DNA from: Armatimonadota bacterium
GTDB lineage: Bacteria > Armatimonadota > Fimbriimonadia > Fimbriimonadales > GBS-DC
Length of the DNA stretch: 61,103 bases
Direction of reading: 5' to 3'
Assembly (NCBI GenBank): GCA_023511915.1
Contig: JAIMAN010000008.1
Span: 1-61,103 of the forward strand
Positions 53,788 to 56,376 of this stretch are shown here, piece by piece. Below the pieces are notes generated by a model, which was given only the letters and a program-made list of their open reading frames with translations, was not told the origin of the DNA and ran no database searches. The position numbers were made by a program, and so were the translations under genes. The first letter of the stretch is position 1. The number at the start of each line of letters is the position of its first letter.

Positions 53788-53909
53788 CCAAAGTTCGTAA
53801 AAGCAAGTGGGAGTGAAGCCCCCCTCCTTAAGGTTCCCCCTGCGAGCAGGGGGAACCGAACCCGTGTGCGGTTCCCCTCGCGAAGCGGGGGGAACCTTAA
53901 GGAGGGGGG
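53788..53909. repeat. Dispersed repeat family A, copy 2, with long inverted repeat
   Basis: It starts CCAAAGTTCGTAAAAGCAAG and contains two GGTTCCCC-type hairpins. Its arms CCCCCCTCCTTAAGGTTCCC and GGGGAACCTTAAGGAGGGGG (about 53819-53909) pair over about 22 bp, so the whole could form a cruciform. Unlike copies 1 and 3 it does not follow an intact small membrane protein gene. Confidence 0.75.
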
Positions 53910-53990
53910 CAACTATGAACTCTGAACGCGCGGTTGATACAACCACAACTCTTGGGGCAACCACAGAGGGCTGTCCCTACGAAACGGGCA

Positions 53991-54048: not shown

Positions 54049-54978
54049 TTATCCCGTACCCAGCAGCGCGGTCTGCCAAAGCCCGTAGCCGACGCCGTAG
54101 CGGGCGCGCGCGCCGTACAGCACCATGTCGCGCATAAACACCTGCTCGCTGTCGGGCTTGTCCAGCGCGGCGAACTCCAACGGCACATCGCGCCGCTCCT
54201 GCAGCACCACCGCCCGCATCGCCCGCGAGGTGTCCAGCAGGAACCACTTGTTCTCGTGCGTCCCCGTGATGTAGTGCGACACAATCAGGCGCAACTTGCC
54301 CTGCATCACATTCCGATACGGCGTGTAGTTACCCGTCGTGTTCGCCTGCACCACAATCGGCGATTCTAGCAGCTCCATCGCCAGCCACTGCAGTTTCGGT
54401 CCGACCAGTAGCGTGTCGGGCATGATGCCCATCGGTCGCCCGCGATCGTCCTTGAACTGCATCATCTGCGCGACGGCGGCTTGCAGGCTCGCCGTAGACA
54501 GCGCGCCGCTATACACATTGCTCTGCAGTCCGCTCTCGCCCTCTTGGTGGTCGGTGTCGAACAGCAGTTGCCCGTCGTAGCAGCGTCCGTCGACGGCGCC
54601 GCGCAGCAGGGCTTCAATCACGAGTTGCTCCTTGTGGCGCACGGCTTCCCGCGCAAGGTCGCGCACGCGCATGCGCACCATGTCGTACTGTTCGTCTTCC
54701 AGCGCGCGTCGCTCGACGGCAATCGACGCTTCCCACACTTGGTCGCTGATGGTGTATTCGTACACGCCCAGTCCTGCGGGTTGCCGCTCGTCGACGAACT
54801 CGCGCATGCGGGGCACGCTGCCCAGCCAGCCGTACTTCTGCACAGGCAGGTTCGTGCGCACAATCGTCGCAATCTGCGGGGTGATGCTCGCTTCGTCCAG
54901 CTGGCGATAGGCGCGGAAGAATTCCGTGCGCAGCCCCGCCTCCACCAGCGACAGCAAATCGCTCCGTACCAGTGGCAT
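54049..54978 (-). CDS. Mu-type major capsid protein (gpT-like)
   Basis: The 309-aa protein matches the Mu gpT-like major head subunits. After an N-terminal helix (GLRTEFFRAYRQLDEA) come the hallmark KYGWLGSVPRMREFVDERQ and GVYEYTISDQVWEASIAVER. Then follow the spine-helix region with ALLRGAVDGRCYDGQLLFDTDH near 140 and LLVGPKLQWLAMELLESPIV. The size fits a full HK97-fold protein. It is last in a three-gene unit with protease/scaffold and decoration genes. There are no terminase, portal or tail genes, so it is either a remnant or a domesticated shell. Confidence 0.85.
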   Translation of the reverse strand: MPLVRSDLLSLVEAGLRTEFFRAYRQLDEASITPQIATIVRTNLPVQKYGWLGSVPRMREFVDERQPAGLGVYEYTISDQVWEASIAVERRALEDEQYDMVRMRVRDLAREAVRHKEQLVIEALLRGAVDGRCYDGQLLFDTDHQEGESGLQSNVYSGALSTASLQAAVAQMMQFKDDRGRPMGIMPDTLLVGPKLQWLAMELLESPIVVQANTTGNYTPYRNVMQGKLRLIVSHYITGTHENKWFLLDTSRAMRAVVLQERRDVPLEFAALDKPDSEQVFMRDMVLYGARARYGVGYGLWQTALLGTG

Positions 54979-54991
54979 CTCAGCTCACCTC

Positions 54992-55405
54992 CTACACGGT
55001 ATGGTTGTCGATGCGGATACGCACGCGGTTGCCGTCCAGCAGTTCCACCACCGTGCCCACGACGATGTTATTCGTGCTGGTTTTGGCGACCTCGTTGTCG
55101 GTGACGGCGCGCGCCGTCGCCCCGATGTCCGCCTGCGTAAAGCTGCCGATACGGTTGTAGATGAAAGTGCCCCGCTTGACTACGCGGCAGCGTTTCGCGC
55201 CGTTCGCGCCGCTTGTGTTGTCCACACTTTCAAACGCGACGCCCACAAAGCGCAGGTTCGCCGTGTCGCTGGCGGGCACGAGGTAGCCTGTGCTGTCGAC
55301 GCACACCAGCGCGCCCTTCCAAATCCGCGCGTTTGCCTTCACAGGATACGCCACAATCAGCCCTTCGCGTTCGTGCGTCTCGTAGGGTTGGCTCAGTGCA
55401 GGCAT
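54992..55405 (-). CDS. Phage capsid decoration/stabilisation-like protein
   Basis: The 137-aa protein is beta-rich: GLIVAYPVKANARIWKGAL, CVDSTGYLVPASDTANLRF, VGVAFESVDNTSG, then CRVVKRGTFIYNR and VVGTVVELLDGNRVRIRID. This pattern matches small head proteins encoded between protease and capsid genes of Mu-like phages (DUF2190-like). The ATG at 55405 follows AGGAGG, which is inside the upstream gene's end. It probably sits on the capsid surface. Identity rests on position and fold pattern more than on sharp motifs. Confidence 0.65.
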   Translation of the reverse strand: MPALSQPYETHEREGLIVAYPVKANARIWKGALVCVDSTGYLVPASDTANLRFVGVAFESVDNTSGANGAKRCRVVKRGTFIYNRIGSFTQADIGATARAVTDNEVAKTSTNNIVVGTVVELLDGNRVRIRIDNHTV

Positions 55406-55406
55406 C

Positions 55407-56186
55407 TCAGCGCACCTCCTTGCTGCGGAGTATCTCGGCGGGGTCAAGGTCGGGGAACGCTTGTCGGAGAAATTCCAGCGCGTCCGTGCTGAACGCGGGC
55501 GGCTCGTCGGCGGGCGTCGGGGCAAGCTCGCCCAGCAGGTGCTGCGGCGGCAGGCTGTCGACGAATCGGCGGAACAGCTCGGCGACCGAAGTCGTCTCAC
55601 CGCTGAACTGCACAGGCGCGTCGCCCTGCAACAGAATCGCCTCCGCCAACGGCGCAAGCGCAGGGGGCAACTGCCCGCGCAGGCTCCACTGCTGAATCTG
55701 TTCGCGGGCGTCGCGGCGCTTCAGCTCGGCTTCCAACTCGCGCACGCGCGCCTGCAAGTACGCCTCACTCTCAGGCTCGTGCAACGGCATCGTGTCCAAT
55801 CGAATCACCTCCTGTATGGCTCGCGCCGAGTGGAACAGTTGCGCGTCGGGGATACGGGGGCTGGCGGTCAGCGAGACTTCGAGCAGGCGTGTCAGGTCGC
55901 GGCTCAGCCCGACGCTCAGCCCGCGCAGGCGCAGTCGGCGTAGCAGCGCGTCCGCTTCGGGAAACAGCGCCAGCCTGCCGAACAGCTCCTGCCCGCGCCG
56001 CCACACGCGCGCCACCCACCCCAGCAGCAACGGCGACGGGCGATGCTCCACCAGAATCGGCGCGGGGGCGCGAAAGGCGCGTACAATCGCGTCCAAGTGC
56101 GCCTCGGTAATGGCGACCCCCTTGTCGGGGTAGACCCCCGCCTCCAGCAACTTCGCGTCGCGATAGACCCACTCGGTGCGCGGCAT
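55407..56186 (-). CDS. Mu-like phage prohead protease/scaffold
   Basis: The 259-aa protein has an N-terminal region like Mu-type head proteases: GVYPDKGVAITEAHLDAIV, ILVEHRPSPLLLGWVARVW (with a histidine after a hydrophobic strand) and RLRGLSVGLSRDLTRLLEVS with a serine in the core. PRIPDAQLF follows. The second half (about 145-259) is charged and helical (ARVRELEAELKRRDAREQI), as expected for a scaffold domain. A His/Ser protease is therefore plausible. The ATG at 56186 was preferred to a TTG at 56213. It is the first gene of the capsid unit. Confidence 0.7.
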   Translation of the reverse strand: MPRTEWVYRDAKLLEAGVYPDKGVAITEAHLDAIVRAFRAPAPILVEHRPSPLLLGWVARVWRRGQELFGRLALFPEADALLRRLRLRGLSVGLSRDLTRLLEVSLTASPRIPDAQLFHSARAIQEVIRLDTMPLHEPESEAYLQARVRELEAELKRRDAREQIQQWSLRGQLPPALAPLAEAILLQGDAPVQFSGETTSVAELFRRFVDSLPPQHLLGELAPTPADEPPAFSTDALEFLRQAFPDLDPAEILRSKEVR

Positions 56187-56228
56187 TCCGCATACACAGG
56201 GCAGTGAATGCAAGGGGAGACAACCTAA

Positions 56229-56376
56229 TTTGCCCTCACCCTCTGTGTCCCCCTATCCCGCGAGGCGGGCAAGGGGATTATGGAGTGCGGAAGCGGAGCT
56301 TCAGCACTCCAAACAGGTCAGCGTGCAGCTCACCTCTCTCCTGCAAGGCGGGAGAGGGGTTGGGGATGAGGGCAAA
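56229..56376. repeat. Composite hairpin element, family B copy 3, with 10-bp terminal inverted repeats
   Basis: The 148-bp copy is bounded by perfect inverted repeats TTTGCCCTCA (56229-56238) and TGAGGGCAAA (56367-56376). Its core (56281-56311) is shortened to one stem, TGGAGTGCGGAAGCGGAGCT followed by TCAGCACTCCA. This is a hybrid of the two stems found in the full copies. It lies just upstream of the capsid module. Confidence 0.75.

Follow-up and report, generated by a model that had tools for sequence, protein, structure and literature searches.

A Mu-type capsid locus in Armatimonadota, probably part of an inherited and chromosomally dispersed DNA-packaging viriform

In gene transfer agents (GTAs) of the RcGTA type, an HK97-type head and a full tail are encoded in one cluster. 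Capsid-forming PICI satellites are mobile islands that carry an integrase and need a helper phage. GTAs have been documented in few lineages, and their wider prevalence is an open question, partly because scattered loci resemble remnants; the GTA particles that are known possess tails (PMC11841831). Neither a GTA of Armatimonadota nor a tail-less GTA is reported in the open-access literature searched. The three capsid genes considered here lie in the window, i.e., the whole stretch of 61,103 nucleotides of Armatimonadota DNA that was analysed. Judging from sequence comparisons, they are likely to form the capsid locus of a viriform of the GTA kind that is ancient, vertically inherited and dispersed over the chromosome, and that would package and transfer DNA.

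The capsid locus

As originally predicted, the locus consists of three Mu-type head genes with intact frames on the minus strand (54049–56186). The gene for the gpT major head protein (54049–54978, 309 aa) matches PF10124 (E 2.7e-61) and PHROG 371 (E 9e-66), the capsid decoration protein gene (54992–55405, 137 aa) matches PHROG 1731 (E 3e-31), and the gene for the Mu-type prohead protease/scaffold (55407–56186) matches PHROG 976 (E 1.3e-8). The protease/scaffold frame is open over 55407–56213 (268 aa), with a likely ATG at 56186 that gives a protein of 259 aa. His57 and Ser100, in the numbering of the 268-aa frame, do not vary among the 21 relatives compared, and would represent the expected catalytic pair. 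The genes are spaced by 1 and 13 nt, as predicted, and ribosome-binding sites (AGGAGGTG) precede both the gpT gene and the decoration gene, the latter being the middle gene for which such a site had been noted. The GC content of the capsid genes is 0.656 versus 0.650 for the whole window, and their codon use is that of the host. A PADLOC run returned no system.

The 10-kb flanks of the locus hold no linked portal, terminase, tail, lysis or transposition genes, and the neighbourhoods read hold no integrase. The window is devoid of other phage genes; the portal, terminase and adaptor matches of the same genome sit on other contigs. Of the genes at 21 loci compared across the order, just the capsid trio is conserved throughout, in the same arrangement, which excludes chance. 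The gpT of this lineage occurs as a single copy in 41 of 61 relatives within the order and, at E ≤ 1e-60, in 91 of 205 genomes of the phylum; its relatives in named genomes are nearly all from Armatimonadota, mostly from the class Fimbriimonadia.

The repeats that flank the locus look ordinary, and neither is counted as part of the system. The upstream element (56229–56376), about 150 nt long, is a dispersed repeat, as predicted; the genome has about 60 more matches to it, often in two pieces. A search for inverted repeats in it, down to 14 nt, did not recover the terminal ones ascribed to it. The downstream element (53818–53910) is an inverted repeat with 26-nt arms that are 96% complementary, and part of it is found again on contig C4, upstream of the portal gene.

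Packaging and neck genes at other loci

The original prediction regarded the capsid module as an orphan. This description no longer applies, because the same genome encodes a portal, a large terminase (TerL), and a head–tail adaptor and stopper, each in single copy. A search with a terminase profile gives one TerL match, on contig C61, identified via PF17289/PF03237; the Walker A motif (CGRRWGK), the DEAA motif and the nuclease aspartates are invariant in 31 of 31 TerL sequences. The portal, likewise a single match (contig C4), was found with a profile built from TerL–portal pairs of other families, and matches Portal_Mu PF06074 with E 4e-67. The adaptor on contig C101, found with a profile built from the gene that follows gpT in other families, adjoins the stopper and a small coiled-coil protein with a single TM segment, which is retained beside the neck genes. 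The AlphaFold model of a relative's stopper (pLDDT 93) matches necks and stoppers of lambda, Pam3, T1 and others. For the adaptor, also modelled from a relative's protein (pLDDT 92), the matches are weak (E 0.15 and above), the best of them being to phage connectors such as HK97 gp6 and the SaPI1 neck.

The chromosomal distances between these loci can be read in a closed genome of the same genus, Fimbriimonadales bacterium KatS3mg018 (AP024673.1, here G010; family-level clade GBS-DC, PMC9671151). The capsid locus is found at 1,412 kb, the portal at 1,233 kb, TerL at 2,273 kb and the neck genes at 2,556 kb, so that the four loci are separated by 0.18–1.3 Mb. Four other genomes (G050, G058, G036 and G034) have terminase and portal adjacent to each other and apart from the capsid genes, and in several other Armatimonadota families the distance from portal to gpT is 2–10 kb. 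The most compact arrangement is a single 7-kb cluster in G030, with protease, decoration protein, gpT, membrane protein, adaptor, stopper, terminase and portal. Because the parts are clustered or near each other in G030 and these other families, we conclude that they belong together and became scattered in the family of the window.

Variants of the arrangement were seen in other genomes. In the HRBIN16 class (L215:11384-12457 and L219:6635-7699), an extra gene of 355 aa and of no known family lies between the membrane protein and the adaptor, and in L260 a GDSL lipase gene takes this place between gpT and the adaptor. A goat-rumen Abditibacteriota genome (L261:9629-12320) has the same genes in shuffled order, with stopper and gpT followed by protease and decoration protein. 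In an outlying family (G018:C45; L080, L180), a divergent capsid locus is followed by tail-like genes (a hub-like protein of 741 aa and a protein of 974 aa) and an amidase, and a portal and a different terminase lie about 31 kb from it.

Tail genes were found neither beside the 21 capsid loci nor in the G030 cluster. Searches for the tape-measure family TIGR01760 and the sheath family PF04984 gave nothing convincing in the family of the window, and TIGR01760 is insensitive, as it also missed a long tape-measure-like protein of a G010 prophage; the tail profile searches as a whole covered few families. The tail hub of G018 and G047 is missing from most carriers; a few genomes give weak hub matches elsewhere. 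In the approximately 1.3 of 3.0 Mb (about 44%) of G010 that was read, clear similarity to the phage head and tail proteins used for comparison is confined to the known loci and the prophage at 664–684 kb. No small-terminase, regulator or lysis genes were found in the same searches.

Other phage-related elements were noted in these genomes. The G010 prophage (G010:C1:664001-684000; L192) is Mu-like, with its own gpT and portal and a tape-measure-like protein of 1094 aa. Genus g11, which does not have the present system, carries a different cluster in several species (L103, G047:C1:1988001-2008000; also G040, G051 and G056), by appearance with an HK97-type portal and capsid, in addition to TerL and a tail-hub-like protein of 710 aa; this cluster might be a second element that is inherited. 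L365 (IMGVR_UViG_3300027268_000061), which is catalogued as a viral contig, has gpT and TerL together with one adaptor-like and one stopper-like gene, next to host-like genes, and may represent the same kind of system in another lineage.

Inheritance, selection and competing explanations

Among 205 Armatimonadota genomes, gpT and portal are both present in 82, one without the other in 9 and 7, and neither in 107 (p ~7e-38), counts that ignore kinship between phylogenetically non-independent genomes, with absences spread over several genera. In 51 high-quality members of the order, 34 have both, none gpT alone, 2 portal alone and 15 neither, when weak, prophage-like matches are left out. The several genomes of the phylum in which gpT was found without portal, or portal without gpT, count against the preferred reading. 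Pairwise distances follow those of the host DNA polymerase (DnaE), with correlations (rho) of 0.90 for TerL, 0.86 for the portal, and 0.90 for gpT without G018 or 0.85 with it, and the distances of the three proteins correlate mutually at 0.72–0.85. By this measure, gpT, TerL and portal have been inherited vertically with the host. The closest gpT on viral contigs is 34–37% identical, and the closest portal 27%. In a quick gpT tree, a branch of 2.0 separates the Armatimonadota clade from 23 of 24 viral gpTs; L039 and the G010 prophage copy join near its base on long branches and with uncertain placement.

The median dN/dS is 0.07 for gpT, 0.10 for the portal, 0.12 for the decoration protein, 0.15 for TerL, 0.20 for the adaptor and 0.23 for the protease, and 0.32 for the stopper. 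For each capsid type, the 11 genes compared within and close to the genus all have open frames. These values indicate that the head and packaging genes are maintained by strong purifying selection, which, with conservation across the phylum, bears out the earlier suggestion of domestication. One species, G001 (L228:10001-10928; L156), has a 2-nt deletion in gpT and a stop near codon 67 of TerL, and its portal and adaptor each match only in two pieces, from which frameshifts can be deduced; the protease, decoration and flanking genes and DnaE remain open. If the four unlinked loci serve one system, they would be expected to decay together, as they do here. Apparent internal stops in the portals of G010, G003, G009 and G014 were dismissed, as they lie at the gene end.

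These observations bear on what the trio could be other than part of an inherited packaging system. An ordinary Mu-like prophage was rejected, because the unlinked loci lie among host genes. The original prediction also considered a recent remnant, and the presence of three genes only at the locus, with no integrase, would fit a decaying prophage; dN/dS of 0.07–0.23 for the main parts, the open capsid frames, the phylum-wide conservation and the co-inheritance of the scattered packaging genes make decay extremely improbable. An encapsulin-like empty nanocompartment, suggested by phage-type shell genes standing alone at the capsid locus, is the most remote of the explanations considered: protease, portal, terminase, adaptor and stopper have all been kept and are inherited together, and the conserved neighbours of the shell gene are head genes only, with no conserved cargo gene among them. 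For the same reason the empty particles of the original prediction give way to DNA-filled heads, to which the co-inherited portal and terminase point. A helper-dependent satellite of the capsid-forming PICI type, which would build its own heads and take tails from a helper phage, could account for the finding of head and packaging genes but no tail genes, but is very improbable for a gene set with no integrase, spread over up to four loci, whose distances follow the host and for which many carrier genomes have no detected related prophage.

A further alternative is that the system is a tail-less domesticated head that packages DNA for another job, either protection or export of DNA at the membrane via the coiled-coil protein, or delivery by means of a head-borne adhesin. 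The absence of tail genes beside the capsid loci and in G030, the coiled-coil protein kept at the neck locus, and the 355-aa or lipase gene inserted between gpT and adaptor would agree with such a role. The adaptor and stopper, which connect to tails in phages, are kept, however, and the tail search covered few families and less than half of G010, so we regard this alternative as distinctly unlikely. Somewhat less doubtful, but still tentative, is the idea that Armatimonadota make tail-less, DNA-filled heads from a phylum-wide, selected set of genes for head, neck and packaging, with a membrane-anchored partner, by which chromosomal DNA would be moved or stored in a manner unlike that of known GTAs; for a tail-less DNA-packaging head, no precedent was found in the open-access literature searched.

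For a dispersed viriform of the GTA kind, the preferred explanation, the following sequence of events can be envisaged. A prohead would be built from gpT, decoration protein and protease/scaffold, and matured by the protease, with a vertex formed by the Mu-type portal from its own locus. TerL, from another locus, would cut chromosomal DNA and pump a headful in through the portal, and the neck would be sealed by the adaptor and stopper of the fourth locus, beside the small membrane-anchored coiled-coil protein. The cargo would be host DNA, because the system's own gene set, with distances of up to 1.3 Mb between its loci, would not fit a particle. The lack of tail genes in the searches described above speaks against this explanation, as known GTA particles are tailed (PMC11841831). 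Particle formation, packaging of host DNA and delivery to other cells are what we infer from the gene set.

Comparison with known systems

With a candidate GTA conserved throughout a phylum, whose parts occupy up to four loci, prevalence, age and dispersal can be tested directly. The case also illustrates how an "orphan capsid" of three genes can belong to a larger machine that is dispersed and maintained, and similar orphans therefore merit a search of the whole genome. If the tail is truly absent, the system would represent a new way of packaging and moving DNA.

The best solved homologue of gpT is that of the phage of PDB codes 8rkc/8rkx (E 6e-49), which we take to be JBD30, a Mu-like siphophage with a gpT head. 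The gpT, decoration, protease and DUF935-portal families are common to both, but gpT is only about 35% identical, and the Armatimonadota genes are chromosomally inherited, with no linked transposition, lysis or tail genes. As for capsid-forming PICI, head and packaging genes occur without a tail, whereas the Armatimonadota system is dispersed and vertically inherited.

Closer parallels are found among GTAs. The RcGTA-type agents of Alphaproteobacteria (Rhodogtaviriformidae; PMC9662315, PMC11841831) are similar in their vertical inheritance, in having head and packaging genes, and in the placement of accessory genes at several loci; the Armatimonadota system differs by its Mu-type gpT and DUF935 portal, and by the lack of any tail found. 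BhGTA/VSH-1 of Brachyspira (Brachygtaviriformidae; PMC9662315) likewise has host-inherited, phage-derived structural genes on a long branch from free phages, and dispersed loci with a single terL outside the structural cluster. In BhGTA, the structural genes form one 16.3-kb cluster and particles have been observed (PMC9662315), whereas the Armatimonadota head genes are Mu-type, the system is split over up to four loci, and no tail gene was found. Relative to these described systems, what is new here is the missing tail, the host phylum, the Mu-type head and the degree of dispersal.
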